A stretch of 20,994 bases of DNA from a virus. Of the stretch, positions 3,432 to 20,994 are shown piece after piece. Under the pieces are notes generated by a model. It did no database searches and was not told where the DNA came from. It saw nothing but the letters and a program-made list of their open reading frames with translations. The position numbers were made by a program, and so were the translations under genes. Position 1 is the first letter of the stretch. Every line of letters begins with the position of its first letter. Location of the stretch: the IMG/VR virus record IMGVR_UViG_3300028388_000924, positions 1 through 20,994 of that record; one strand, 5' to 3'.

Positions 3432-4051
3432 GACGCAATCAACTCCGCATCAACAAATGCCAACGATCGGTTAGCATCAGCAGAAAACAATATCCTAAGA
3501 CTAGAACTGAACCCGACGTTGTATAGCTCTTTCAGGCCTGTTGCCAGCACATACTCTACTTCGTAACGATCACGCTGTTGTCGCATGCACAACGTCCCGT
3601 CACTTTGCTTGATGTAGAAAAACAAAACGTCACTGGTTGACGACTGCCATTTACGCTTATCGTCAAGGATGACACGAGGATTCTTTATGCCAGGATAATG
3701 CGTCTTAACCTCTGTCCCAACCTGAGAGTTGAACCAGATCAGGTAAGGCTCCCCTCCTTCCACGATCGCCATCGTCACACGCATGTTCTGATCGAACGTC
3801 AGGCTAACCTCAGTGATGTTCTCGCCACCTTGGTAATACACATCTTCAGGCACCTCTTCTGCACTGAGATATACCTGCCCACCCTCAACCCTTGCAGTCC
3901 ATACCTGATACAGCAGGCCCTGCGACGAATCGCTAAGAGCTATCCCTCCGTCCTCGTAGTCCACCAGATAATCGTTGCGGCCAATACCCCTGGCACCCAC
4001 CACAGTAGATGGGACGATTGCACTGGCTAACCTGAGTTCCGGTAGCGCCAT
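3428..4051 (-). CDS. Putative tail structural protein, unknown family
   Basis: 207 residues. The start ATG overlaps the previous TAA by one base (TAATG), and the stop is shared with the next start (ATGA). The protein looks beta rich: repeated short strands and turns such as YLVDYEDGGIAL, VYLSAEEVP and PYLIWFNSQVG. It has no membrane segment. A late stretch (FSADANRSLAFVDAEL, about 188-203) resembles the ADA/VDA units of the 681-residue repeat protein at 10244-12289. A tail or fibre-associated structural role is inferred from its place directly after two large putative tail proteins. Confidence 0.6.
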   Translation of the reverse strand: MALPELRLASAIVPSTVVGARGIGRNDYLVDYEDGGIALSDSSQGLLYQVWTARVEGGQVYLSAEEVPEDVYYQGGENITEVSLTFDQNMRVTMAIVEGGEPYLIWFNSQVGTEVKTHYPGIKNPRVILDDKRKWQSSTSDVLFFYIKQSDGTLCMRQQRDRYEVEYVLATGLKELYNVGFSSSLRILFSADANRSLAFVDAELIAS

Positions 4052-5070
4052 TACACAATCACCGCATTGGCTGACGTCTCAATCGTGACGTCATACCCTT
4101 CGAGCCAACTATCAGCACTCGCAGTCACCGTGAACTCTGGCCTGTCAGGACGCGTCCACTTGATGGTGATATCGAATACCATTTGGTGATACTCGGTCTT
4201 CGGGATAGGAGGATCAAACCCGATCTGCCAGGATGCAGGACCGATGATGCAGGAGATCGCCGCAATACCGTTGTCAAAGTTGGCTTCGTCATAGTCCAGT
4301 ACGAAACGATGTGTTCGTTCGTAACTGCCTTCGACATAGGTCAAATTCGATTGCCCACCACTAATAGCCTGATTCGACCCCAACGGTCCTCCGTAATAGT
4401 CACCAAGCCCACCATCATAGGCCCAGAAGTATGAGCCTATCTGCCCCATGTGGAATCCAGACTCACTGGGGTAGACCCAACCAAGGGTTCCCGTGGACGT
4501 TGAGCCGTAGTCCGCATTGCACATGCGCAGCCGGTACACGAAATCCCTGCGGTTGAAGTTCATGTATCCGGTAACGTCATCAGGCCATGCCGTAATCTGC
4601 GCCTCGTAGACGACCTTAAGAACCTCATCAGCAAGTACGACAACAGTCGTCGGATTGCCTTCAATGTCCTTAACAAGGGATCGGCTATACAGACTGCCAT
4701 CCGATTCCCAGCCAACACCAACTTCAGTAATCCTGCCAACCGCAGCGCCAACAGGGAACGAGAAGGTGCGTCTCCAATAAGCAGTAAAGTCGTCGTAGAA
4801 CGGGAAAGCCGTGGGAGAGTGGACCCCACGAAACGTCGAATCTACCGTAGTGGTCGATGCAAGTGGCGCTTCAAGATGCGTGTCAGAAGTCGTCGGGGGT
4901 GTAGTTCCAGCCCCAATCTGACAATACGTTAAGAGAGAAGAACTCGATCCACCAATCCGATCAAGCCCCGTGTCGAGAATTGTATTCTCAAACCATGAAG
5001 ACAATGGACGGATAGATCCATCAACTTGGTGCACTTCAAGTCTGTAATAACCTGATACGCGCAACGACAT
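4051..5070 (-). CDS. Tail structural protein, second of two paralogs
   Basis: 339 residues, beginning MSLRVSGYYR. It starts with a TGATG overlap and has AGGAT upstream. It is a diverged paralog of the gene just upstream (5070-6104). Shared signatures in the same order are N-x-I-x-(N/D)-x-GL-x-RI near residues 29-38, a Y-CQ-(V/I)-G-(A/T)-G-x-T-x-P segment near 50, a W-R/F-x-F-x-x-G strand near 95-107, VG(V/P) near 117, and PTT-V-VLADE near 140-150. After residue 160 the two diverge. The composition is Gly/Ser/Thr/aromatic rich with no membrane segment, which fits a beta-sandwich virion protein. I cannot assign a named family; tail tip or fibre association is inferred. Confidence 0.65.
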   Translation of the reverse strand: MSLRVSGYYRLEVHQVDGSIRPLSSWFENTILDTGLDRIGGSSSSLLTYCQIGAGTTPPTTSDTHLEAPLASTTTVDSTFRGVHSPTAFPFYDDFTAYWRRTFSFPVGAAVGRITEVGVGWESDGSLYSRSLVKDIEGNPTTVVVLADEVLKVVYEAQITAWPDDVTGYMNFNRRDFVYRLRMCNADYGSTSTGTLGWVYPSESGFHMGQIGSYFWAYDGGLGDYYGGPLGSNQAISGGQSNLTYVEGSYERTHRFVLDYDEANFDNGIAAISCIIGPASWQIGFDPPIPKTEYHQMVFDITIKWTRPDRPEFTVTASADSWLEGYDVTIETSANAVIV

Positions 5071-6104
5071 CAGGTTATCCTTACAGAGTTTGACAACACT
5101 GTGTTCAACCTAATCCACAATGTGTAGTCACTGGTCTTTGGAATCGCAGGCGTGAACTGTATCTTCACGCCGTATCGGCAAAAGCGTGTTGCCATCGCTC
5201 CAATGCCGGACGCCCAGTTTGCATCTTCAAGCTGGAAGGACAGTGTTCTGTATGACGAATCACCTGATACATTGGTCGTAAACTGACCATAGCCGTTTGG
5301 ATCACCATAACTTTTCGATCCAGTAATGTTTGTTGTCTCGTTGTTAAACACAAGATCGCCAGCACTAACTGCAGCGGCAACTTCACCTGAGCTAGAATCG
5401 TTGAAGTTGTGTGTTATACTGTCAAACCAGTCATCGTAAGACCATCCGCTCCAACCAGCATAACTCGAAGTATTAGTCTGAGGCTCATTAAGTCGTAACA
5501 ACCAATCGTAACTGTTCCCGTCTAAGGTGATAGTTCCTGACACATCTCCAGGATCTCCACTACCATCGTCTTCCCACAGGTAGAAGTAGAAAGTCCAAGT
5601 CACTTCAAGATATTCGTCAGCAAGGACAGTGACTGTTGTTGGCACTCCACTCTCGTTGACAGTCAAGCAACGGCTTACAAGGTTTCCAGACGTTGACGGA
5701 CCAACGCCAAGTTCCTGGATATTTCCCGTCGCTTCGCCTGGATTAAAGCGCCAAGTACTTCTTGCATACCAATAATATGGTCTGGTAAGAATTCCATTAG
5801 CACGGCTATTTCCTGTGGCGTGCGGTGTGCCATAAGGACGAAGATCGGAAGTTGCCAAATACGATGCTAAGGATGTATCTGTAACCTGTGGCGCAGTATT
5901 GCCTGTTCCCACCTGACAATACCGAGCATTATCGTTATTCCACGTAGTCAAGTTAATACGAGATAGCCCGTAGTTCGTGATCAGGTTAGGCATATCTCCT
6001 GTATCACGCACAAGCCTGCCAGTATCTGCCTTGAACACTCGACAACGATACGTGCCGCCTACCCTGGTAGGGAGCATAATGTCAGACTCTTTATACTTGC
6101 TCAT
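5070..6104 (-). CDS. Tail structural protein, first of two paralogs
   Basis: 344 residues starting MSKYKESDIM; the first ATG forms an ATGA overlap with the previous gene. An internal Met at residue 10 is a less likely start, though the paralogy begins near there. It shares an ordered set of motifs with the next gene: NLITNYGLSRI, the YCQVGTGNTAPQ segment, WRFNPGEATGNIQELGVG, and TTVTVLADEYL. The rest is rich in Asn, Ser, Thr and Trp and probably beta. Two adjacent paralogs in the tail block suggest a duplicated tail component with separate partners or receptor contacts. The family name is unknown to me. Confidence 0.65.
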   Translation of the reverse strand: MSKYKESDIMLPTRVGGTYRCRVFKADTGRLVRDTGDMPNLITNYGLSRINLTTWNNDNARYCQVGTGNTAPQVTDTSLASYLATSDLRPYGTPHATGNSRANGILTRPYYWYARSTWRFNPGEATGNIQELGVGPSTSGNLVSRCLTVNESGVPTTVTVLADEYLEVTWTFYFYLWEDDGSGDPGDVSGTITLDGNSYDWLLRLNEPQTNTSSYAGWSGWSYDDWFDSITHNFNDSSSGEVAAAVSAGDLVFNNETTNITGSKSYGDPNGYGQFTTNVSGDSSYRTLSFQLEDANWASGIGAMATRFCRYGVKIQFTPAIPKTSDYTLWIRLNTVLSNSVRIT

Positions 6105-6733: not shown

Positions 6734-7871
6734 ACAAACCGTCCCAGGTTTGTTCTTCGCTAGACAACGAATCCCACGTCACTCTCGGCTTCCTGGAGAT
6801 AGCGGCATACGTTGCGCCAATAACCTGCGGCAACTCTCGTGGATACCACTTGCCGGTTTGTAGGTTGTAGACCAATGCTCTGTTGCACCCGATCGAGTAG
6901 TTATCCTCTGTCGGGTAACAAACCCACACTTCCTGCATGCGCCTGTAGTACGTCACGAAGGTGCGTTCATACAAAGATTTGCTCAGCGTGTTGAAGAACT
7001 CATCGAGTACAAAACCACGAGCAACAGACTGGAACCCGTGCCCATCGAACAAGTAGATATCACCATCACCTACAACAAAGTGCCTGCCGCCGACGTCGCA
7101 TACGCAGTCACGCGACAGGATGCCGCGACTGCGGCTGACAGGACGATATTGGAACTGGAACGTGCCACCTGTATACGATGCCGTATAGATGGCGTCCTCC
7201 TTGTAGATGATGAAGTAATCGCGCAGTGACAAACCATCAACAATTACACCAGTCGTATCTGACAAGAAGGTATCACCTGTCAGCTTGGTCGTATCAGACA
7301 CATCCCATGACGAAGGCACAGACCCAGGTTCTGCGGGATGTGACCAGACCAACTTTTGTGCATTGTTAACCGTGTCTTCTGTGACATTAAGCGCGAAGCA
7401 GAAGTTTTTGTGAGCCCTGATTACCTTGGCATTGAACCGTGCATCATCCCAAGTTCTCGTCGCATCAAACGGAAGATCCACACACCGACCAACGCCACCC
7501 CAGTACTGTGGATTGTCCGCACCATTACCAAGCAACAACACGCTGCCAAGGTTAGTCGTCCACCAGTAGTTGGTACTGGTGTAAGGCCCGTTGTCACGAG
7601 TGATGTCTCTGTGAACGCCACCTACAAGGCTGTAGATGGCGCTCTGCGTCGGGTACACAATGAAGATCGTGTTGCCTACACGGCAAGACCCAAGCCCCTT
7701 AGGGCCGTTGTCAGTCTCTGACAGAAGCTCATGCCCAGGGAACGACTCGATGCGGTTCTTGTTGCACCGCACGTTCTGCATCTGCGTAAACGCCTGAGGC
7801 GCAAGCTCACTGGCATTGATGTCAGTGACCAACCCCTGCGATCCTATGTTGTCGATTCTGGAGCGAGGCAT
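6726..7871 (-). CDS. Tail nozzle / DNA stabilisation-like protein
   Basis: 381 residues, start in a TGATG overlap. The N-terminus (SRIDNIGSQGLVTDINASELAPQAFTQMQNVR) has the usual form of phage head-closure or tail nozzle proteins of the P22 gp10 type. The rest shows repeated strands spaced like beta-propeller blades: GNTIFIVYPT, GSVLLLGNGAD, NFCFALNV, DYFIIYKEDAIY, RHFVVGDGDIYLFDG and EVWVCYPTEDNYS. In podoviruses such proteins seal the channel below the adaptor and carry the tail tip. The C-terminus holds two Trp-Asp motifs (VTWDSL and QTWDGL) that resemble the WDDW start of the next two genes. The family call rests on pattern and gene order only. Confidence 0.7.
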   Translation of the reverse strand: MPRSRIDNIGSQGLVTDINASELAPQAFTQMQNVRCNKNRIESFPGHELLSETDNGPKGLGSCRVGNTIFIVYPTQSAIYSLVGGVHRDITRDNGPYTSTNYWWTTNLGSVLLLGNGADNPQYWGGVGRCVDLPFDATRTWDDARFNAKVIRAHKNFCFALNVTEDTVNNAQKLVWSHPAEPGSVPSSWDVSDTTKLTGDTFLSDTTGVIVDGLSLRDYFIIYKEDAIYTASYTGGTFQFQYRPVSRSRGILSRDCVCDVGGRHFVVGDGDIYLFDGHGFQSVARGFVLDEFFNTLSKSLYERTFVTYYRRMQEVWVCYPTEDNYSIGCNRALVYNLQTGKWYPRELPQVIGATYAAISRKPRVTWDSLSSEEQTWDGLYE

Positions 7872-8692
7872 CAGGTTATATACCCTATGACAGTGGCTGA
7901 TCCAGTTGGTGGAATGCTGGTCCAGACACGAAGACTACTCAACTCGACAAGCACCATAGTCTTTACTCGTGAGCAAGCTTGGTTATTGCCGGCAGCACTT
8001 AACGTAAACATCTTTGATGATGAGGACGTCGGTGCAATCGATATCGACTCAGGCGTGTAGGAATAATCATCATACGTCCAACTGTCGTATTCACAACCAA
8101 CACTCAACCAAACGAATATCGCCTTGGCATCAGAAGGAAGAATGGCGGTGAGAATATTTAGCCCATCATCTAGATCATGCCATGAGTCAAGAAGCCCAAT
8201 GCCACTAGCTGCTGAAACCTGATTCGACACAAACGCTGTTGTCGCAATCTTTGTACTTGCGTCTCCAGCTTCTGGCGTTGGCGCAGTTGGAGTGCCCGTT
8301 AACTCTGGGCTGTCGAGATCAGCCTTGAGATTCAGTGCCACTTGCAGATCTGTCTGGTTTGCCAGGGTTCCTGTAATGCCGCCCCACGCTGCGCTACCAT
8401 CAGCACCTGAGGTCTCGATAGCTGCAAGACGCTCCTCGATCGTCGAGTCAGAGCCAATCCCAACCAGTTGTTGAATATCTGCGGCAGTAACACCAGCCGC
8501 TGCCGCACCTGCGGTAATGTTCAGATCGTTCTGGTTTGCAGTAACAGGACCAGATAACGCAGAAAACGTGTTCTTAAGAACGTACTTGTTCTGGAGGATA
8601 TGGTTGTCACCCTCACCAGCAGCATCAGGTCCTGTCGGCCCATAGACATCAGGATCAAGCTGACTGGGATATGACGCATTCTCAATAGGCAT
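7871..8692 (-). CDS. Tail fibre protein, second of two paralogs
   Basis: 273 residues, TGATG overlap at the start with GAGGATAG upstream. Residues 1-70 are nearly the same as the N-terminus of the preceding gene (MPIENA-YPSQLDPD, GEGDNHILQNKY, SGPVTANQNDLNITAGAAA), which suggests a shared attachment domain. Residues 83-93 form a short helix. Residues 122-158 contain the common phage tail-fibre element (KADLDSPELTGTPTAPTP, then AGDASTKIATTAFV). Residues 165-273 are a unique C-terminal domain rich in Ser, Tyr and Trp and probably the distal, receptor-facing part. The fibre assignment is well supported by the middle motif. Confidence 0.8.
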   Translation of the reverse strand: MPIENASYPSQLDPDVYGPTGPDAAGEGDNHILQNKYVLKNTFSALSGPVTANQNDLNITAGAAAAGVTAADIQQLVGIGSDSTIEERLAAIETSGADGSAAWGGITGTLANQTDLQVALNLKADLDSPELTGTPTAPTPEAGDASTKIATTAFVSNQVSAASGIGLLDSWHDLDDGLNILTAILPSDAKAIFVWLSVGCEYDSWTYDDYSYTPESISIAPTSSSSKMFTLSAAGNNQACSRVKTMVLVELSSLRVWTSIPPTGSATVIGYIT

Positions 8693-9417
8693 CAGGCTAT
8701 CCTCTGTACGAGCGCGTTACTGTCAGAAAAATTATATCCACCACGTAATACCCACGTTCCTAACAGCCTTACCCCGTTAGTGACGCTGCTACCAGGAATC
8801 CTTGCAAGGAATGCGTATGTCTTGTCTGGGTCTGTAAACACCCAGCATTCCTCATTTCTTGCAACACCAACAAACTGATGCACTAACACATAAGACCCTA
8901 CAGGAAAGTCTGCATTGTCTTGATCGTGCTCAGTGTAAATTGAATCTGCAAGAGCTTTATCAACGTATCTGGTAGTAGCAATGATATTGCTGTTGTCCCC
9001 CTGTGCAGGTGTCTGTGATGTTGGATACCCAGGACCAAAATGCGGCTCGTCCAAGTCAGCCTTGGAAGCAAGCGCAGTCACCAAATCTGTCTGGTCTGCC
9101 AGCGTCCCTGTAATGCCTCCCCATGCAAGCTCGACAGCTTCGATAGAGCTAAGACGAGTTTCCAGGCTCGCACTCGTGCTCAAGCCTGCAAGCATCTGAA
9201 ACTGATCTTTCGTTACACCAACAGCCGCAGCTCCAGCCGTGATGTTCAGATCATTCTGGTTGGCAGTGACTGGGCCAGAGATCTTGGAGAACGTGTTCTT
9301 GATGATGTACTTGTTTTGCAGGATATGGTTGTCACCTTCTCCCGCAGAATCTGGACCTGTCGGACCAAAGTTGTCCGGGTCTAGTTGGCTGGGGTAATCA
9401 GCATTCTCAATAGGCAT
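8692..9417 (-). CDS. Tail fibre protein, first of two paralogs
   Basis: 241 residues; the ATG at 9417 shares one base with the previous TAA. It has the same N-terminal attachment-like region as its downstream paralog (residues 1-66) and a diverged fibre element near 115-155 (KADLDEPHFGPGYPTSQTP, then IATTRYVDKAL). The C-terminal 85 residues are unrelated to those of the paralog and include VGSYVLVHQFVGVARNEECW and a final TWVLRGGYNF. The pair thus shares a base and differs at the tip, a pattern of mixed or branched fibres. The receptor is unknown. Confidence 0.8.
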   Translation of the reverse strand: MPIENADYPSQLDPDNFGPTGPDSAGEGDNHILQNKYIIKNTFSKISGPVTANQNDLNITAGAAAVGVTKDQFQMLAGLSTSASLETRLSSIEAVELAWGGITGTLADQTDLVTALASKADLDEPHFGPGYPTSQTPAQGDNSNIIATTRYVDKALADSIYTEHDQDNADFPVGSYVLVHQFVGVARNEECWVFTDPDKTYAFLARIPGSSVTNGVRLLGTWVLRGGYNFSDSNALVQRIA

Positions 9418-10243: not shown

Positions 10244-12289
10244 TTACCTCAATCTAGTCCAAGTACTTGAGTTTTCCCCGATCTGGGTCCATGACCCAGT
10301 CGCAGGATCTTTTTTCGTCCAGACGCCTCCACTTGTTCCTGAGTCAGACCAGGGGTTTTCCCTTACGAGGCTCGCGTCTACACGACTTGATGCATAAGAA
10401 GTTCCCCTCAGGTATGCATCTACATCTACTGTATGTGTGCTAGTTGTTGGTCCGATTATGGCATCTAGTTGTACTGATGCCTTTGATACTTGGCTAAGTA
10501 TAGAATCTGCTGACGCAGTATGCGTCGTTGCTGCCTTAAGGATTGCATCAGCATTGGCTAATACTTGTATCGCACCCTCAAGAACTGCGCCTGCCTGCAC
10601 CAACTTGACTTGGTTAAGCGCAATTCTGGAGTCAATCGAGAAGTGTTTGACATAGCGGTAGACAGGATCTGCGTCTGCACTGACCGTCTGCTGCTGGTTG
10701 CCCTTGACCAAGGCATCCGCCTTGGGCGTGAGAAGCTCTGTCCCAAGCTCCAGAAGGATCGCATTGGCAGAAGTCGTAACCTGTTGCGTACCACGCACCA
10801 GTGCATCAGCGCGGAACAGGTTGCCGCTGCGCTTCTGTACGAGCGCATCGACCTCTATATATTCCAGCCCGTCACTGACCAGCTTGGCATCAGCAATAAC
10901 CTGTGGCGTCCCCTGGCGGATAAGCAGGGCTGTCGCATCAGCAATAAGCTCTGATGCCTTGCCGATCTCCTGCTGCACCTTAGCCGTGAGCGTCTTGCGC
11001 ACCACGGCAGCGCCATCAAGCTGAGCCTGAATCTCCTTGGTCTGCTGAAGCAGAGCATCAACGAAGACATCAATCTGCGTGACGCCTTCAGAGAACAGAA
11101 CGGAATCAGCCTGAGCCGTTGTGAACCCAATGCCACGCAGAAGTGCGTCAACGCTAGTAGTTACAGACGTTGCGCCACTAAGCTCTGCATCTGCATCCGA
11201 AGATACAGTGCCACGCTTCTGCAAATAAGCATCAACATCAGCAGTGAGCGCACCGAGCTGCTCGACTAACGCATCGACTTGCGAAAAAACCTGCTGGAGT
11301 TTTTGCGTGAGCGCATCCGTGCTGGTCGTTACTTGCCCAGTCTGCTGCGCCAGAGCATCCGCTGATGCGGATATCTCGATAGTCTGGGAGACATAGGCAT
11401 CAACGCTTGTCGTGCTAGTCTGCGTCTTCTGTACCAACGCATCCGCACTGGACGTTGCGACACTGGCTAGCTGTTGAAGCAGTATGGCGTCAGAAAGGGC
11501 TGAGACGCTCTCTGTGCCCCTGACAAGCGAATCCGCTGTGAAGATGCCGGTATAGGTCTTTTGCGCCTGCGCGTCCGCAGAGGACGTTACAAAGCCTGCC
11601 TGCTGAAGCCACGCGTCTGCCGATATACTTGCGGTATATGCCTTCTGGACATACGCATCGACAGTTGCAGTCTGTGTGAATGTCGCCTGGACATAAGCAT
11701 CAGCAGATACGTTGATCTGGTTCTGCGCAAACTGGAGAAGCTCTGCATCCGTGCTCGCGCTTATCGTCAGAGTTCGCTGTACCAGTGCATCAGCATCCGT
11801 GCTAATCGAAAACGTCCGCTGGATCTCGACATCAGCACCAACAGTAATAACCTGTGTCTTCTTGACATAGGCATCAACAAGAGGTGTGGTTATGTAGCTG
11901 GTTTTTTGGAGCCAGACATCTGCGTCAGAGATTTTGGTAAAGGTTTTTTGCGCAATGGCATCCGCGCTTGCAGTTTTTAGAACAACCTGCTTGAGCGCAG
12001 CATCAACGCTGGCGGTGATAGTTTGCGAACTGGCACCGACCGTCGTCAGTTCGCCCAGCCACAAAATGTTACTGTACGCGCCAGCGTCTTCCCATACTGC
12101 ATACACGTCGTATGCGGTGCCGCTCGACAGGCCAGTGACCGAGAAGGATGTATCATCCAGCGCAGCCGTTGCCGCCTTGCTATCAGACCACGGCGCAGTA
12201 CTGCCGGTCTGGTCTTGTCCTGCAACGATCTGCGCCGCCGATGGCGCAGCCAGTGCAGTGGCTTGAGCGATGGCGTATAGCGTAGCCAT
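10244..12289 (-). CDS. 681-residue FN3-like and ADA-repeat protein
   Basis: The longest complete gene of the window, start in a TGATG overlap. Residues 1-88 look like a fibronectin type III-like domain (SFSVTGLSSGTAYDVYAVW, then SNILWLGELTT). Residues 94-641 are about 37 short units with the consensus (A/V)DA-x-(L/V)-(Q/x)-(K/x)-T followed by a Thr/Ser-rich strand; spacing is mostly 14 residues early on and about 15 on average. The C-terminus holds Trp-containing segments (GGVWTKKDP, GSWTQIG, STWTRLR). There is no Cys-rich, signal or membrane segment. Its place between the leucine-rich-repeat gene and the fibres suggests an extended virion-surface or host-contact protein. I know of no named family for the repeat. 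Confidence 0.7.
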   Translation of the reverse strand: MATLYAIAQATALAAPSAAQIVAGQDQTGSTAPWSDSKAATAALDDTSFSVTGLSSGTAYDVYAVWEDAGAYSNILWLGELTTVGASSQTITASVDAALKQVVLKTASADAIAQKTFTKISDADVWLQKTSYITTPLVDAYVKKTQVITVGADVEIQRTFSISTDADALVQRTLTISASTDAELLQFAQNQINVSADAYVQATFTQTATVDAYVQKAYTASISADAWLQQAGFVTSSADAQAQKTYTGIFTADSLVRGTESVSALSDAILLQQLASVATSSADALVQKTQTSTTSVDAYVSQTIEISASADALAQQTGQVTTSTDALTQKLQQVFSQVDALVEQLGALTADVDAYLQKRGTVSSDADAELSGATSVTTSVDALLRGIGFTTAQADSVLFSEGVTQIDVFVDALLQQTKEIQAQLDGAAVVRKTLTAKVQQEIGKASELIADATALLIRQGTPQVIADAKLVSDGLEYIEVDALVQKRSGNLFRADALVRGTQQVTTSANAILLELGTELLTPKADALVKGNQQQTVSADADPVYRYVKHFSIDSRIALNQVKLVQAGAVLEGAIQVLANADAILKAATTHTASADSILSQVSKASVQLDAIIGPTTSTHTVDVDAYLRGTSYASSRVDASLVRENPWSDSGTSGGVWTKKDPATGSWTQIGENSSTWTRLR
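10367..12010 (-). repeat. Degenerate coding repeats (about 37 ADA/VDA units)
   Basis: The Asp of each (A/V)DA unit recurs mostly every 14 codons, with occasional insertions to 15-17 and longer gaps toward the C-terminus. The plus strand shows this as recurring words such as gcatca, gcatcc and gcgtc. Units are highly diverged at the DNA level, so this is an old, selected repeat and not a fresh tandem array. Confidence 0.8.
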
Positions 12290-13308
12290 CAGCTATTCAC
12301 ATTCACGGTCCAGCCCCGGCTTTCGAGCGTGGCCTTGTCCGCTAGTCCGGTGGTGGAAGGGGGTGAGTTTGTGCCGCCATCTATATCAAGCCTTATAGTT
12401 CCAGTTTGCCCGCCTGCTACGCACCGCGCCAGGATTGCATCGACAGTTGTTTGATCTAAAGCGCACCCATAAAAAGCATTAGTAAAAACTGTACACGCTG
12501 ACAAATCCCAGCTGCTAACATTTAGCGATGTTAGTGACGAGCAGTTATAGAATGCGTAACCGAGAGTTGTACACGATGACAAACCCCAGCTGCTAGCATT
12601 TAGCGATGTTAGTGACGAGCAGTCACGGAATGCGTAAATGAGAGTTGTACACGCTGACAAATTCCAACTACTGACATCTAGCGATGTTAGCGATGAGCAG
12701 GCACGGAATGCAGACTCCAAACTTGTGCAGACTGACAAATTCCAACTGCTAACATCTAGTGTTGTTAGCGATGAGCAATTATAGAATGTCGAATCGAGAG
12801 TTGTACACGCTGACAAATCCCAACTGCTAACATCTAGTGTTGTTAGTGACGAGCAGTTCTCGAATGCATAATACAAACTTGTGCAAGCTGACAAATCCAT
12901 GCCCCTGCCATCCAGCGTCGTGATATCCGAATCACGAAATGCGTTGGATAAATTGACAGTCCCGTCAAAAGCTAGTCCTGCCCAAATCACGTCACCGGCA
13001 AAACGAGCTTCTTGACCAGACCCATCAACCTTAAAGTCGTCAATCGTCCCACTAACACGAACGTTATAGGTTCCTGCCGTGGCAAACGTATGGCTGATCG
13101 GCGTCGATGTGAATGTCTCAACGCTTGATCCATCGCCCCAATCGACGTTGACGTTGACCGTACCTGACGCAGGGAACGTAAAGACCTCAGAGGCAGTCGT
13201 CGTAGTGATCTCAAACAGCGGGTAGACGACATCGAGCGTGACCGCACCACCATCGGATGTCGCGGTGCCGATCTGACCGTCTAGCAACGCGGGGACTACC
13301 GCAGCCAT
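12289..13308 (-). CDS. PKD plus BspA-type leucine-rich repeat protein
   Basis: 339 residues, TAATG overlap at the start. Residues 37-88 form a PKD-like domain with the hallmark VDWGDGSS and ISHTFATAGTYNV. Residues 142-271 are five 26-residue units, each C(T/S)-x-L-x-x-(A/T)F-x-x-CSSLT-(T/S)-L-(D/N)-(V/A)-SSW-x-LS, the pattern of BspA-type (DUF285) leucine-rich repeats. A sixth partial unit (residues 272-282) and a C-terminal cap follow. BspA-like proteins mediate surface binding in bacteria, and PKD domains are common in extracellular adhesins. In a late phage operon this suggests a virion-displayed host or glycan-binding protein. Cys recurs twice in every repeat. The receptor is unknown. Confidence 0.85.
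   Translation of the reverse strand: MAAVVPALLDGQIGTATSDGGAVTLDVVYPLFEITTTTASEVFTFPASGTVNVNVDWGDGSSVETFTSTPISHTFATAGTYNVRVSGTIDDFKVDGSGQEARFAGDVIWAGLAFDGTVNLSNAFRDSDITTLDGRGMDLSACTSLYYAFENCSSLTTLDVSSWDLSACTTLDSTFYNCSSLTTLDVSSWNLSVCTSLESAFRACSSLTSLDVSSWNLSACTTLIYAFRDCSSLTSLNASSWGLSSCTTLGYAFYNCSSLTSLNVSSWDLSACTVFTNAFYGCALDQTTVDAILARCVAGGQTGTIRLDIDGGTNSPPSTTGLADKATLESRGWTVNVNS
12496..12885 (-). repeat. Five tandem 78-bp leucine-rich coding repeats
   Basis: Exact 78-bp (26-codon) register. For example gcagttatagaatgcgtaac at 12541 is matched by gcagtcacggaatgcgtaaa at 12619. The words gatgttagtgacgagcag and ctgctaacatctagtg recur. Some neighbouring units are nearly identical, which suggests recent copy-number change. 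Confidence 0.9.
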
Positions 13309-13873: not shown

Positions 13874-14641
13874 CTACCTTGGATCATATTCAACATGAAT
13901 ATGATCGTCTTCAACGATCACCTGATACTCATGACCAAGCTCTGCAATCATGGCATCTGCTACAGCAGTGTCTCTGCCGTCCCTCAACGTCCTCGTGCGA
14001 AAGTCCAATGCCAGCCCCTTGCTGTGCAAAGACTTCGTATCACGCGGCCTGTACGCAGATGTGACAACCGTATCAACACCCTCCACATCAAACGCATGCT
14101 GCGCCGCTCGGATTGCTGGCCCCATGCGGTTTAAATCAATATTCCTAGTATCAACCCCAGGCTTAACGCTAACGCCAATAGCGGCCAAATAGCCCGCAAG
14201 TCCGTCATCGACAACCTCTGGAGCACGAACGACTTTAGCCTTGAGGTTGTCTCGCTTAACACCTCTAATACCTTCGTAAGCACGGATACCTCCCAGGCCC
14301 AACAAGGCCAGCACCAACGTCATCAGATCTGCTGTATCAATTTCCGGCAAACTGATCGTTGAACCAGACGCACTGATAATGATCAGCACCAGATCACGAA
14401 ACACCCAGGCATAGGCAAGACAGAACACAACCAGCCATCCCAAGGCTGGACGCCAGCCAGCAACAAACAAACTGGGGTGCTTCGCCTCTTCCATGTTTGT
14501 CATTGCCTGGAGGATGTGCGGATGTTGTGCAGTCTTTTGTGCAGCAAGGCGAGCAGCAGCACGTTCCTCATCCGACGTAAACAGCGAGTCCAGACCACTA
14601 GCAATCTCTCTCGCCAATCCGCCTGCATCTACGTTGATCAC
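13874..14641 (-). CDS. Holin (3TM-type) fused to M15-like peptidase endolysin
   Basis: 255 residues, GTG start in a GTGA overlap. Residues 1-50 form an amphipathic helical region. KHPSLFVAGWRPALGWL at 54-70 is the signature of the 3TM holin family known from gene transfer agents and phages. It leads into a membrane segment at about 66-90 and another at about 104-119. After a linker (120-145), residues 146-255 resemble an M15 D-Ala-D-Ala carboxypeptidase/endolysin: a probable peptidoglycan-peptidase core with SAYRPRDTKSLHSKGLALDF at 195-214 (H206 and D213 as likely zinc ligands) and DDHIHVEY at 245-252 (H249 the probable third ligand, H247 the alternative). In most phages these two functions are separate proteins. 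Here one chain would carry both membrane and wall activity. Each half is recognisable; how the C-terminus reaches the periplasm is unknown. Confidence 0.85.
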   Translation of the reverse strand: MINVDAGGLAREIASGLDSLFTSDEERAAARLAAQKTAQHPHILQAMTNMEEAKHPSLFVAGWRPALGWLVVFCLAYAWVFRDLVLIIISASGSTISLPEIDTADLMTLVLALLGLGGIRAYEGIRGVKRDNLKAKVVRAPEVVDDGLAGYLAAIGVSVKPGVDTRNIDLNRMGPAIRAAQHAFDVEGVDTVVTSAYRPRDTKSLHSKGLALDFRTRTLRDGRDTAVADAMIAELGHEYQVIVEDDHIHVEYDPR

Positions 14642-14822: not shown

Positions 14823-15190
14823 CACATCTTTCCCATCACAAACGCAGCAACAGCAGAAAATGCAGCAACCACTAGCCCTACAATCAGCGTCATGTAGGTC
14901 TTCCGCTGCTCTCGTATTAGAATCCTACGGTCTTCGTCTTCCTGCTCGGTATGCGCTGATAACGTGCCAGCTATGTGTTCAACCTTCTTATCCATAGACA
15001 TCACGCCTTCAGCAACACCATCAATTTTCTGGTCAAGCCTTAGGTACTTCTCGTCCATCAATAGTCCTTGAGCGTCAACACGCCCCTCTACTCGGCTAAT
15101 GCGAGCGTCTTGCTCGTATTGCTTACGCTCAATGTGATGAACGGTATTAGCAATATCCTCAATATCTTTGGCATGTCTCTCGTCCATCAC
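14822..15190 (-). CDS. Tail-anchored coiled-coil membrane protein (XhlA-like)
   Basis: 122 residues. GTG at 15190 (GAGG seven bases upstream) forms a 4-base overlap with the sulfotransferase stop; the ATG at 15187 is an alternative. Residues 5-95 are charged and helical with heptad-like repeats. Residues 100-120 (MTLIVGLVVAAFSAVAAFVM) form one C-terminal membrane span. This layout resembles XhlA-type haemolysin or holin-associated proteins. It begins the lysis cluster, so it may help the fusion holin-endolysin, act as antiholin or be a spanin-like part. No catalytic motif is seen. Confidence 0.65.
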   Translation of the reverse strand: MMDERHAKDIEDIANTVHHIERKQYEQDARISRVEGRVDAQGLLMDEKYLRLDQKIDGVAEGVMSMDKKVEHIAGTLSAHTEQEDEDRRILIREQRKTYMTLIVGLVVAAFSAVAAFVMGKM

Positions 15191-16011
15191 GCGACAGCCT
15201 CACACATAAAGGAATAACCCATCATCTTCATAACAACACCATGGTCAGACTCGATCTGCTCAATCTGCTCTCGTGTTAACCCATCCAACCACTGCTTACA
15301 TTTGCCTGAGTTGAAGAATCGGTCGTTATGGTCACTCGCCTCTGCGAACCCCTCCCTGGCTTCTTTTTCTTGCAAGGCTTTGAACCCGCAAACACGAACG
15401 GCATGATCGATTCTATCGTCGTCAGGGTCATCGACTCCCTTAAGTCCAAGCAGCAACCGTAAGGCCCGGGCAGGATGCAATTGCATATCCTCATAGCGCA
15501 TTACCTCAACAGGAAATCGCTTCTCGTTAACCCAGGTCGCTACGTTATTGCTCCAGGTGGACAACAACGACGAGATACCTGCCTTGTTTACGATGCTGAA
15601 GTCATACTGGTTCATGGCAGCGATCGTGTCGTCCACGCTCTTGCCTAGATGCCTTGAGAAACTCAGCGCAATGTCACGAGGATCACGCACGATAACCATC
15701 GCACCCTGTGTCATGGTCTTAGGAATCGTGTAATTCTCGTCAATCTGGGCATTGACGAAGTGTGTCTTCACCAACACCGGCTTCTCGTCAGCTAGGTGCA
15801 CCTCGTTAAGGAGTGCAGCCTGACGGAGCAGCGACTGGTCTTTGTGCGATGGATTCGGGTAAGGGCTCAGCTTGTGGTAGATGTAAGGGTTCACATCTCC
15901 AACACTGCCCTGGATGCGCTTCAGGCTAACACCACCAAACTGGTACGCAGCATACAAACAGCGTAGCCACGTATTGCCTGATTTTGGATAACTTGCAAGC
16001 CATAAGATCAT
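15187..16011 (-). CDS. PAPS-dependent sulfotransferase-like protein
   Basis: 274 residues from the ATG at 16011 (TGATG with the adaptor stop); a TTG three bases earlier is a less likely start. The sulfotransferase hallmarks occur in order. SYPKSGNTWLR at 7-17 is the 5'-phosphosulfate-binding loop. KTHF at 82-85 carries the candidate catalytic His84. IVRDPRDIALSFSRH at 107-121 is the 3'-phosphate-binding strand-helix with Arg109 and Ser117. MRYEDM at 171-176 matches the usual YEDL region. FNSGKCKQWLDGLT at 233-246 corresponds to the C-terminal RKG-GDWK-type loop in weaker form. The protein would transfer sulfate from PAPS to a hydroxyl or amine on an unknown acceptor. Length fits the family. 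Its place inside the head-to-lysis operon is odd and implies late expression. Confidence 0.9.
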   Translation of the reverse strand: MILWLASYPKSGNTWLRCLYAAYQFGGVSLKRIQGSVGDVNPYIYHKLSPYPNPSHKDQSLLRQAALLNEVHLADEKPVLVKTHFVNAQIDENYTIPKTMTQGAMVIVRDPRDIALSFSRHLGKSVDDTIAAMNQYDFSIVNKAGISSLLSTWSNNVATWVNEKRFPVEVMRYEDMQLHPARALRLLLGLKGVDDPDDDRIDHAVRVCGFKALQEKEAREGFAEASDHNDRFFNSGKCKQWLDGLTREQIEQIESDHGVVMKMMGYSFMCEAVA

Positions 16012-16640
16012 CAAATCATTCCCATCGAGTCAGGACGTACTCGCAATGGAGATCCCGACCATTTGCGCTTGCTGTCCTCTTTGATGACTTCCTGCTTTGT
16101 CTTCTCGTACATCGTCATGTACTTCATGTGCCGCTGATCGTCGAAGACAAAATCTGCCGCCTCTGCCAAAGAACGGTAGAGCAACAGGTTGGGAGCATTA
16201 TCAATGATCTCGTTGGTGAGATTCAGGTCTGACAGATATGCAGGCCGGTAGTAGTACGTCATCGTTAACGTTGACGTATTGCTGCCAGCAGGAGCAGGAC
16301 GTAATTCGATCTGCCCATCCTGCACCGTGTAGTAACGAGGGAATCCCGCAGCAGTAGACGGACTCTCCTGGTCTGCCAGATGCGGCGATAACTGCTCCAG
16401 CGTGTAACGGTAACCACCACTGTCCCACTGGATGCTGCGCATTGCCAAATAGTCCGGTGGCAACTCGATAAACGCACTCGTCGGCGTAGCATAGGCACGT
16501 GATTCATTCCACGTCACCTTTAACCAACGGGCAATGTCATCCTCTGCAATGCGAATAAAGTCTTCAGCGTTGTCAGCCACCTCGGAGTGGTTGATCCTCG
16601 CAACTATCGCTGCCTTCAAGTCTGTGTAGTTGTCGAGCAT
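16011..16640 (-). CDS. Head-tail adaptor protein (SU10-type)
   Basis: The ATG at 16640 has GGAGG five bases upstream and is preferred to the GTG three bases before it. 209 residues starting MLDNYTDLKAAI. The helical N-terminus, NRIAEDDIARW-like core (FIRIAEDDIARWLKV), ELPPDYLAMRSIQW and a final helical segment (ADFVFDDQRHMKYM) match phage adaptor proteins of the SU10/P22 gp4 group. It would sit as a ring under the portal. Gene order (capsid, two small proteins, adaptor) agrees. It ends with a TGATG overlap with the sulfotransferase. Confidence 0.8.
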   Translation of the reverse strand: MLDNYTDLKAAIVARINHSEVADNAEDFIRIAEDDIARWLKVTWNESRAYATPTSAFIELPPDYLAMRSIQWDSGGYRYTLEQLSPHLADQESPSTAAGFPRYYTVQDGQIELRPAPAGSNTSTLTMTYYYRPAYLSDLNLTNEIIDNAPNLLLYRSLAEAADFVFDDQRHMKYMTMYEKTKQEVIKEDSKRKWSGSPLRVRPDSMGMI

Positions 16641-17184: not shown

Positions 17185-18150
17185 TTAGCTCAGATCAAAG
17201 ATATGCGCGTGAGCGTTGGGATCGCGGACCTCAAGGGTCGTCTCCCAATAAATCGCCTTACGCATCGAGTCTCCGTTTTCTGCGAGATCCTTGGAGTAGA
17301 TCGAGCGCAGATCTGCGAGCTTCAGGTACTCGGGATCGATAAGGAACACCGAGCCAGATATACAGAAACGATCTGGAACAATCTTCACGGTATGGAAGTC
17401 GCCATCATAAACATCGATGGACGCCACGAGGCGACGATCATCCGTCGTCACGTAACGGGTCGAGCTTGCCGTGAAGGTGGAGAACACCCCGCGCTGCGAA
17501 GCATCACAGATCGCCATGATGTTCTTGTTGCCACCAGAGTTGGTGAACAGGTTGGACAAAGTGCCATCGAGAATCGTCTCGGTCAGAGCACGGTCAGCAC
17601 CACCACGGTTCGGAACATCAGAACCATCACCCGCCGGGTTGGCAGAAGTTGCAGCTGCAAATTCCGTGCCAGCCACACCGTTAGCAAGATAAGCAGACAG
17701 CGACGCCATCTCACGAGCCGTCGAGGTGGAGCCAGCAACCGCTGCGTTGTCCACACCGAAGATCGCATGCTCAACGTCGGTCTTGATCTCGGTCATGCGG
17801 CGTTCCATCTGATACGCCATTTCCGAGGCAATGCCCGCCTTGTCCACAGCTTCCTGAGTCTCGGTGACTGCCGAGTCTTTGCGGAAGATCTGGGTGTAGT
17901 TGGTCAGACGCACACGGTCTGCCGGGTTGGTGTGGGTGACGTCCTCACCTTCAATCTGAGCATTGGCGTTACCCGTGCTCAGGGTGTCGGTCAGCCATTG
18001 GTGCAGAGTGTTGGTCGCCTTGCCCTTACCGATAGCCTGGATTCCGGGAGTCTCGGTGGGCGAGACATCCCAGATCATGTCCGAAAGGTCCTCACGGTTG
18101 CCTTTCGCGTTTTCGTCATAGACGCTATGAGCGCCAGTCAGAGTAGCCAT
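17185..18150 (-). CDS. Major capsid protein (SU10 / DUF5309 type)
   Basis: 321 residues, with TAGGAG eight bases before the ATG. The N-terminus (MATLTGAHSVYDENAKGNRE) with DVSPTETPGIQAIGKGKATN near 28-47 and HQWLTD following fits the SU10-like capsid family; ENGDSMRKAIYWETTLEVRD near 292-311 is the usual C-terminal strand. It has no Cys pairs or signal. Length is normal for the family. It directly follows the scaffold, whose stop codon lies inside the capsid ribosome site. Confidence 0.9.
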   Translation of the reverse strand: MATLTGAHSVYDENAKGNREDLSDMIWDVSPTETPGIQAIGKGKATNTLHQWLTDTLSTGNANAQIEGEDVTHTNPADRVRLTNYTQIFRKDSAVTETQEAVDKAGIASEMAYQMERRMTEIKTDVEHAIFGVDNAAVAGSTSTAREMASLSAYLANGVAGTEFAAATSANPAGDGSDVPNRGGADRALTETILDGTLSNLFTNSGGNKNIMAICDASQRGVFSTFTASSTRYVTTDDRRLVASIDVYDGDFHTVKIVPDRFCISGSVFLIDPEYLKLADLRSIYSKDLAENGDSMRKAIYWETTLEVRDPNAHAHIFDLS

Positions 18151-18157
18151 AACAATT

Positions 18158-18163
18158 CTCCTA
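18158..18163 (-). promoter_or_regulatory. Capsid ribosome site containing the scaffold stop codon
   Basis: TAGGAG, eight bases before the capsid ATG. Its first three bases are the TAG that ends the out-of-frame scaffold C-terminus (reading ...SGM-stop). This is the close spacing seen at most other junctions and supports the +1 frame as the real end of the scaffold gene. Confidence 0.75.
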
Positions 18164-19223
18164 CATACCTGAGATCTTCATCTTCAACAGTTCTCGGGTA
18201 GCAGTGCGATCGCCCTGGCGGGAACGCTTACGCAATTGCTCGATGCGCTTGTTGCGTTCATCACCAGCATTCTTCCTGGCTCCAGGCTTGACGAACTTGG
18301 GCTTTGACTTGAGTTGCTTCTTCTTCGGGTCAACCTGCTTTTGCATACGGTCGTAAAGCATTGCCTTGTAAGCCAGCACATAGACCCGTTGCACCAAGAC
18401 TCTTAAGGTACTCGTTGACCTCTGCACGACCCTTAGATCGCTTCTCTTCGTCCGCCCACTCAGGGATACGACCAACCAGCAACTCCATCTGGTCTTTCTT
18501 GAACTTGTCATGCTGCTCAACAAGCTTGCTCTGCTGTTGCGCCAGTTCCTGGTCCCGCTTTGCCTTTAAGGCATTACGGTATTGTTGGATCTGGGCAAAC
18601 TTGTTCTGCAACTGCTGCTGCACCAGCAGGAACTGCGTAGGATCTTCTTCCTGAAGTTCCGACCAGTTGATTCCCTGGTACTCGTTAGCCAACAACTGCT
18701 CCATCGCGGAAATGGTGTCGTCAGCTTCCTGAGCTTTCGTCTGATACTCGGAGCGCAGGCGCTCTTGCTCTGCTTCCCATTCCTTTCGCTGCTCAGCCAT
18801 CTGCTGAGAACGCTGATGTAGGTGTTGCTCAAGCTGGTACGACTTGACGACATCCGCCAGGGTAGCCCTGCTCTGCTGACCATCGACCTTAATGTCTACC
18901 TTAAGAGCCGCCTTTAGCTCGTCAGGCTCAACCTCAAGGGCCTCTGCTAGGTCCGCAAGAGTCTCAGGCATCCATCGAGACTCGTCCCCGCCATCACCTG
19001 CTTCTTCATCACCCTCGTCGTCCGTAACGTCAGTATCGGAATCCTCAACTGCTTCGCCATCGATCTCGTCGGTAGGCTCTGCATCCTCTACTGGTTGCTC
19101 GTCATCCTCTGCCTTTGGTAGAGAAGCCTTTGCGGCATCCTCGCCAGACAAGAAAGTGACCAGCCGGTCGTGAACACTGTCTTTAGCTACGCCTTCATCG
19201 GTAGTAGCAATATCAAGCCCCAT
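18161..19223 (-). CDS. Scaffold protein with a reading-frame break near its C-terminus
   Basis: The ATG at 19223 has GGAG six bases upstream; one at 19229 is too close to it. Frame 0 gives an acidic N-terminus (about residues 35-90 rich in Asp/Glu), a Gln/Glu/Lys helical core, PEWADEEKRSKGRAEVNEYL, then a short unlike tail ending at 18330. The +1 frame, open from about 18523 to 18161, carries YVLAYKAMLYDRMQKQVDPK, a Lys-rich region with KFVKPGARKN and a basic helix with EQLRKRSRQGDRTATRELL. That is what is expected at the C-terminus of P22-type scaffolds. The switch is most likely between about 18378 and 18410. Frame 0 alone would leave roughly 180 empty bases before the capsid gene. The cause could be programmed frameshift, mutation or assembly error. 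Confidence 0.8.
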
Positions 19224-19488
19224 CGTCATCTCCAGACTTATGTCTTAAAACTGCGGCGTCCTGCACCAATGCAAGCAACTCCGCACGTAGACGCTTGGCG
19301 CCATACAACATTGTATAGGCTAGCTCGCGTTTATCAGTTTCGCTAGGCACAGACTCAGAAATAGCCGTCATCCATTGCCTTTCTATATGCGCTAGCACGT
19401 CATTAAGCAGTTCATCCTCAAGAAGCTGACGCGCCCTGTCCCCCCTGGCTAAACGTTGCTCCTTGGTTAGGTCCTTGGTTGGCAGCAT
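19213..19488 (-). CDS. Small protein between portal and scaffold, 91 residues
   Basis: ATG at 19488 with GAGGTGAT upstream. It overlaps the end of the portal gene by 71 bases and the scaffold start by about 11. It starts MLPTKDLTKEQRLARGDRAR and is mostly helical with many charged residues (QLLEDELLNDVLAHIERQW, then KRLRAELLALVQDAAVL). Portal-adjacent small helical proteins occur in several podoviruses, with unclear roles. No family name is offered. Confidence 0.65.
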   Translation of the reverse strand: MLPTKDLTKEQRLARGDRARQLLEDELLNDVLAHIERQWMTAISESVPSETDKRELAYTMLYGAKRLRAELLALVQDAAVLRHKSGDDDGA

Positions 19489-20994
19489 TTATCACCTCGA
19501 TCTCTTGTGCTCTTGCCTCTACCTCTCGATCAAGCGTACGATCCATCTGTTCCATCTCCAGCTTGATCTCTTCCATCGCAATTTTTCGCTCATCGTTCGA
19601 CACCTTGCGTTCCTCAAGCGCCAACTTGCGAAGCTCGATGTCGTAATCCTGCTGATTCTCCTGGGCCTTAACCTGATTCTGCTGCATCAGAGCCTGAATC
19701 TGCGCCTCCATCATCTTCTGCTGCGAATCGTCACCCTTGGGCATCGGCTGACCCTTAGGATCAGTCCAGAACATGCTTGGCTCCTTAAGCCCAGCGTTCT
19801 CTACGAGCTTGACCAACGTGTTGTAGAGGTTGTCCATCGTTACGATCGGCAATCCAGAGGCCAATGCCTCCTTCTGGAACTGCAAAATCGTTATAAGGTG
19901 GCCCAGTACCTTGTCCTTCTCCCCCGTGCCAAGGCCAACCGTGACCGTCATATTGGTCCGTTCGCGCCATTCCGAGGGATTTATCGGAATCCACTCGCCA
20001 CGGATCTTCACCACCTTCTGCTGGTTCTGGTTCTGCACCAAAAGCCGGTGAATCCCGATCATCAGCCGCTTGACGCTCTCCCCGAACAGCATCGAAATCA
20101 GCTTCAGACGCTCAGCAGAAGCATCCATGATGCGTGTGATACCTGCTGCCGTCTTGTTCAGGCTGTCAGCGTCAATGCCCTGGTTGTAACGGGTCACGCC
20201 CGTGCGGTTTTCCTTAATGGAGTCCAGATATTCAAGCATCTGGTACGGATGCCCCGTTAAAGATTGCGTGGGAAGCGGCGTCACCATGTTGGGAGCAGAG
20301 GCCCTGACGACCCCTCCAGGCGTGGAATCAAGCAGATCCTCAATAGCCACCTCACCCTCAACGACCACATGCCGCTGGTTGTTGATCTGGTACAGGTTGT
20401 CCATGATGTTCCGCAGCAACGTAGACTTCTGTAGCTGCAAATCCATCACCTGATCAGCAGCACTACGCCCAAAGAACCGATGCGTCATCGGGACAGGCGT
20501 CCAGGCCTCGAACGGAACGTAATCGATTTCCTCGTTCTCGACGATAGTGCCGTTAACCAGACAAATCCGACGACGCTCCGCATACCCATCGCCATCAAAA
20601 TCAATCAGCTTGTAGCACTCGGTATACGTCACCTTGCGCATCGTCCAGTCAACAGACGACTGACCGTTCATCGACAACTCGGCCACGTTCTCGAACCGAG
20701 CAACCTTCTCGGTATCGAGCGAATCACTGTCAACATTGGCCGATGCAGACTCCAAAACCCCCTTAGGTATGCCCATGCTGATCAGATCGCTCACGTACAT
20801 CTCGCGTTCGTGTGCACAAAACGGCACCTTCTGGAGGCCCAATTCCGACCATTCAGGACGAATCTTGAACTCTTCTGGCGGAACCGGAATGACGACTACC
20901 TTCCCGTCCATCCGAGTACGCTTGATCTTGATGTCGTACTGGATGATCTCTGCCTGCATGCCAGAAGCAGGGTCTGCAACAACCTCTATCTGCT
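19418..20994 (-). CDS. Portal protein (P22 type), 5' end outside the window
   Basis: Open to the window edge; the first visible Met (20959) is internal or uncertain because the frame continues upstream as QIEVVADPASG. About 524 residues are seen. Counting from that Met, TYTECYKLIDFDGDGYAERR at 111-130, FEAWTPVPMTHRFFGRSAAD at 150-169 and a long LQKSTLLRNIMDNLYQINNQ helix at 176-195 fit the P22-like portal family. RTGVTRYNQGIDADSLNKTA and the following helix fit the clip/wing region. The last 110 residues form a Gln/Glu/Lys-rich helical tail, possibly a barrel-like extension, then a Gly/Gln/Ser-rich end. It forms the 12-fold DNA channel of the capsid. The terminase would be expected upstream of the window. 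Confidence 0.85.
   Translation of the reverse strand, partial: QIEVVADPASGMQAEIIQYDIKIKRTRMDGKVVVIPVPPEEFKIRPEWSELGLQKVPFCAHEREMYVSDLISMGIPKGVLESASANVDSDSLDTEKVARFENVAELSMNGQSSVDWTMRKVTYTECYKLIDFDGDGYAERRRICLVNGTIVENEEIDYVPFEAWTPVPMTHRFFGRSAADQVMDLQLQKSTLLRNIMDNLYQINNQRHVVVEGEVAIEDLLDSTPGGVVRASAPNMVTPLPTQSLTGHPYQMLEYLDSIKENRTGVTRYNQGIDADSLNKTAAGITRIMDASAERLKLISMLFGESVKRLMIGIHRLLVQNQNQQKVVKIRGEWIPINPSEWRERTNMTVTVGLGTGEKDKVLGHLITILQFQKEALASGLPIVTMDNLYNTLVKLVENAGLKEPSMFWTDPKGQPMPKGDDSQQKMMEAQIQALMQQNQVKAQENQQDYDIELRKLALEERKVSNDERKIAMEEIKLEMEQMDRTLDREVEARAQEIEVINAANQGPNQGATFSQGGQGASAS

Follow-up and report, generated by a model that had tools for sequence, protein, structure and literature searches.

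The stretch of DNA considered here, referred to as the window, comprises the 20,994 bases of virus record IMGVR_UViG_3300028388_000924, a genome fragment of an uncultured phage. On its minus strand, a head scaffolding gene immediately precedes an SU10-type major capsid gene, as expected for a member of PHROG 3927, and the order of portal, small gene, scaffold and major capsid protein corresponds to that surrounding the PHROG 3927 scaffolds Ss1 orf07 and PhiCHU gp68. Moreover, in its head genes the window phage is similar to Cronobacter phage Ss1 and to Bruynoghevirus. The scaffold gene is distributed over two reading frames (Table 1). Frame 0 extends from the ATG at 19229 to a TGA at 18332-18330, in line with an earlier note on this DNA that had let the frame stop at 18330. 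In the +1 frame, no stop occurs from 18523 until a TAG at 18163-18161; this stop codon overlaps TAGGAGAA, the ribosome site that serves the capsid gene (ATG 18150), so that the course of the frame down to 18161 is likewise as previously described. The +1 piece contains the sequence RVYVLAYKAMLYDRMQ...PKFVKPG..., and the final approximately 20 residues of the frame 0 piece (ATGLCAGLQGNALRPYAKAG) constitute out-of-frame sequence.

Table 1. Features of the scaffold locus and its neighbours in the window
Feature	Position	Strand	Description
Scaffold gene, frame 0 piece	18330..19229	-	N-terminal and middle parts, 299 aa
Scaffold gene, +1 frame piece	18161..18388	-	Second helix and basic C-terminal tail
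Junction	18383..18392	-	About 32 nt common to all relatives absent (connector GF...EE...DHR)
CTT AAG, proposed slippery site, not supported	18402..18407	-	Upstream of the frame switch; AAG 26 per 1000 codons
Major capsid protein (SU10_MCP family), intact	17185..18150	-	Pfam PF17236, E 2e-81; PHROG 1328, E 1e-92
Portal protein, cut by window end, rest intact	19418..20992	-	PHROG 1216, E 2e-105

Several further genes on the minus strand of the window deserve mention in their own right. A gene with a Sulfotransfer_1 domain (15187-16014; Pfam PF00685, E 5e-17) and without a PHROG match is placed between the structural genes and the lysis module. The product of 13874-14641 combines a GTA-type 3TM holin domain with a C-terminal half that appears peptidase-like by eye (SAYRPRDTKSLHSKGLALDFR), and would, if the latter reading is correct, constitute a holin-endolysin fusion. 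At 12289-13308, a PKD-like part is followed by leucine-rich repeats of the DUF285/BspA type, possibly forming a surface-binding, tail-associated protein, and 10244-12289 encodes a protein of 681 aa with many imperfect 'xxxDAxVQKTxxxxxxx' repeats, recognised by eye, that matches neither PHROG nor Pfam. In addition, two pairs of neighbouring genes look paralogous by eye, namely 7871-8692 and 8692-9417, which have the N-terminus MPIENAxYPSQLDPD in common, as well as 4051-5070 and 5070-6104, which share motifs.

The homology of the scaffold gene in two frames is not due to chance. In searches against PHROG 3927 (head scaffolding protein), the frame 0 piece matches profile positions 16-259 with an E value of 9e-28, and the match of the +1 piece covers positions 272-326 with an E value of 4e-4. 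Since both pieces belong to the same head-scaffold family, the observation of the earlier note that the scaffold C-terminus lies in the +1 frame stands. A profile built from 35 relatives recovers both parts with greater significance (E 1.6e-56 for the frame 0 piece; E 6e-11 for the +1 piece, at positions 286-356). The open +1 frame alone carries little weight, because 4 of 100 distinct relatives likewise have no stop in the corresponding frame across the final 225 nt of the scaffold gene; it is the homology that makes the case. Besides sequence family and gene order, the window gene has in common with its relatives a K-rich C-terminus and the PKxxKPG motif found in most of them.

Relatives were gathered from viral contigs via the capsid protein, to which they show up to about 58% identity; 115 of them span the junction, a number that includes duplicates and near duplicates and corresponds to 100 distinct scaffold tails. 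In every one of these 115 the scaffold is a single open frame that ends just before the capsid gene, and the split is confined to the window. The tail is kept in all relatives examined, and the scaffold genes among additional loci retrieved with a DNA motif likewise proved to be single frames. Furthermore, the annotations of two isolated phages whose genes are ordered alike, Cronobacter phage Ss1 and Pseudomonas phage PhiCHU, each list a single scaffold gene; unlike Ss1 orf07 and PhiCHU gp68, the window gene is approximately 32 nt short and carries its tail in +1. Closer counterparts were scarce: searches of viral contigs with the frame 0 protein, the +1 piece and the portal returned no near relative or a single distant one, a DNA search of phage records gave no match, and neither did tblastn of the +1 piece against phages.

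The frame switches at about 18390-18383 and not at the CTT AAG run at 18407-18402. In the profile of the relatives, the frame 0 match ends at model position 274 (about 18390) and the +1 match resumes at 286 (about 18388), a leap that spans 1 nt at the junction. Codon usage, modelled on the other genes of the window, fits frame 0 down to about 18386 and places the best single switch at 18383, with positions 18386 to 18380 nearly equal. When the entire minus strand is segmented into four states by means of a model of this type, the switch falls at 18386/18385, which is the only clear within-gene frame switch in the 21 kb; by this segmentation, no other gene of the window is clearly broken. The CTT AAG, for which the earlier note had considered +1 slippage, is present as described; it is situated approximately 12-24 nt upstream of the frame change, however, and AAG is a common codon in the window, which argues against slippage there.

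What is missing at the junction becomes apparent from the length of the linker between model positions 262 and 292. This linker comprises 29-43 residues in the 115 relatives and exactly 30, the mode, in 71 of them. In the window, frame 0 contributes 12 residues to it and +1 a further 7, with one base between them, thus 58 nt versus a modal 90, and the shortfall of about 32 nt relative to the modal relative falls exactly at the switch. Since about 32 nt is not a multiple of three, its absence produces exactly the frame change observed, and the suspicion that the link between the conserved parts is shorter than usual is borne out. The missing stretch corresponds to a conserved connector of 10-11 residues between two helices with the motif GF...DHR. 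In the predicted model of one relative, L045 (mean pLDDT 83 overall and 90 or more in blocks of the C-terminal part), the residues absent from the window, approximately F58 to H69 of the C-terminal part, join helices 39-55 and 69-87, and this connector includes both a short helix (60-64) and D68, the almost invariant aspartate of DHR. The window was also scanned for a repeat of the junction sequence as a possible source of a chimeric join, and none was found. A member of PHROG 3927 is expected to have one uninterrupted frame including this connector, whereas the window gene is split and lacks it; hence, it is a broken copy of a PHROG 3927 member.

Taken together, it is very probable that the scaffold gene is interrupted, in this one sequence, by an out-of-frame deletion of about 32 nt at approximately 18390-18383, as we infer from comparison with relatives whose capsid proteins are up to about 58% identical. 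A single event of this kind would account for the shifted frame as well as for the short link and where it lies. The earlier note had listed a short out-of-frame deletion as its second option, and the comparison of homologous scaffold genes that it had proposed as a check favours this option, with a single frame in 115 of 115 relatives and about 32 nt absent from the window at the switch. Translation as written would end at 18330 and yield a scaffold of 299 aa devoid of the second helix and the basic tail, presumably a non-functional protein. In phage P22, a coat-binding helix-turn-helix is located at the scaffold C-terminus (PMC12005531). The P22 scaffold likewise ends in helices and a basic tail and its gene adjoins the coat gene, so that the lost second helix and basic tail would by analogy be expected to be the putative coat-binding part; the likeness would be one of function.

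The deletion may have arisen by mutation in the phage that was sampled or by an amplification or assembly error of the contig, the sequence alone being compatible with both. We lean slightly towards an artefact or a minority variant taken into the contig, because genuine mutations in an essential head gene should be infrequent. The +1 tail contains no internal stop and retains normal codon usage and its family match, and the deletion would therefore be recent or absent from the phage altogether. With regard to stops and codon usage, a functional shift would leave the same picture.

Two explanations that assume a functional gene in its present form have to be weighed against such a deletion. 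It is extremely unlikely that the truncated frame 0 form suffices and the tail is a relic: frame 0 does end in an open extension of 20 residues, but the family profile stops at the junction and leaves this extension unmatched, and the tail, present in all relatives, is without decay in codon usage or family match. Hardly any probability is likewise assigned to a two-piece scaffold, in which the C-terminal part would be made as a separate small protein carrying helix 2 and the basic tail from an internal +1 start. In-frame candidates include GTG 18394, preceded by AAGAG at a distance of 5 nt, and ATG 18361 and ATG 18346, both by re-initiation; the ribosome sites of the two ATGs are poorly spaced, however, the arrangement is found in no relative, and the absence of the connector would be left unexplained.

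The reading that the earlier note had put forward, programmed slippage setting the ratio of capsid-binding to non-binding scaffold, is not sustained. In such a scheme, a +1 frameshift at CTT AAG or near 18390 would yield a minor, full-length capsid-binding scaffold beside the truncated form. As far as the capsid ribosome site, the tail is indeed intact, homologous and of normal codon usage, and the presence of a CUU codon shortly before frame 0 ends recalls +1 sites of the prfB and Ty1 type. At known sites of this type, the ribosome stalls because the codon immediately following CUU is a stop or is rare, and in prfB a Shine-Dalgarno-like stimulator lies just upstream of the shift site. Unlike these, the window has the common AAG, not a hungry codon, after CUU, the switch further downstream and no relative with two frames (0/115). 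Thus the proposed site does not coincide with the frame change, and neither a slow A-site codon nor conservation was found. Even a perfect slip would give a fusion lacking the conserved connector and the D of DHR, so that two independent oddities, loss of the connector and a new recoding site, would be required in place of one deletion. Phages do recode to obtain two forms of a capsid protein, as in Privateer (PMC7881722); for a phage scaffold gene, a literature search at the level of titles and abstract openings found no paper on a programmed frameshift. A programmed shift is very improbable here, and there is similarly little chance that the phage lineage has fixed a shortened two-frame scaffold whose capsid-binding form arises through +1 recoding or whose tail is produced as a small protein of its own.

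Hence, the frame break in the window is that of an ordinary broken gene or a sequence artefact and not a programmed ribosomal frameshift. If a programmed shift were true, it would constitute a scaffold counterpart to the two-form capsid proteins of T7-like phages. For the interpretation of phage genomes, the case calls for caution: an essential phage gene whose frame is broken can mimic recoding, yet the linker length in relatives reveals the missing stretch that accounts for the break.
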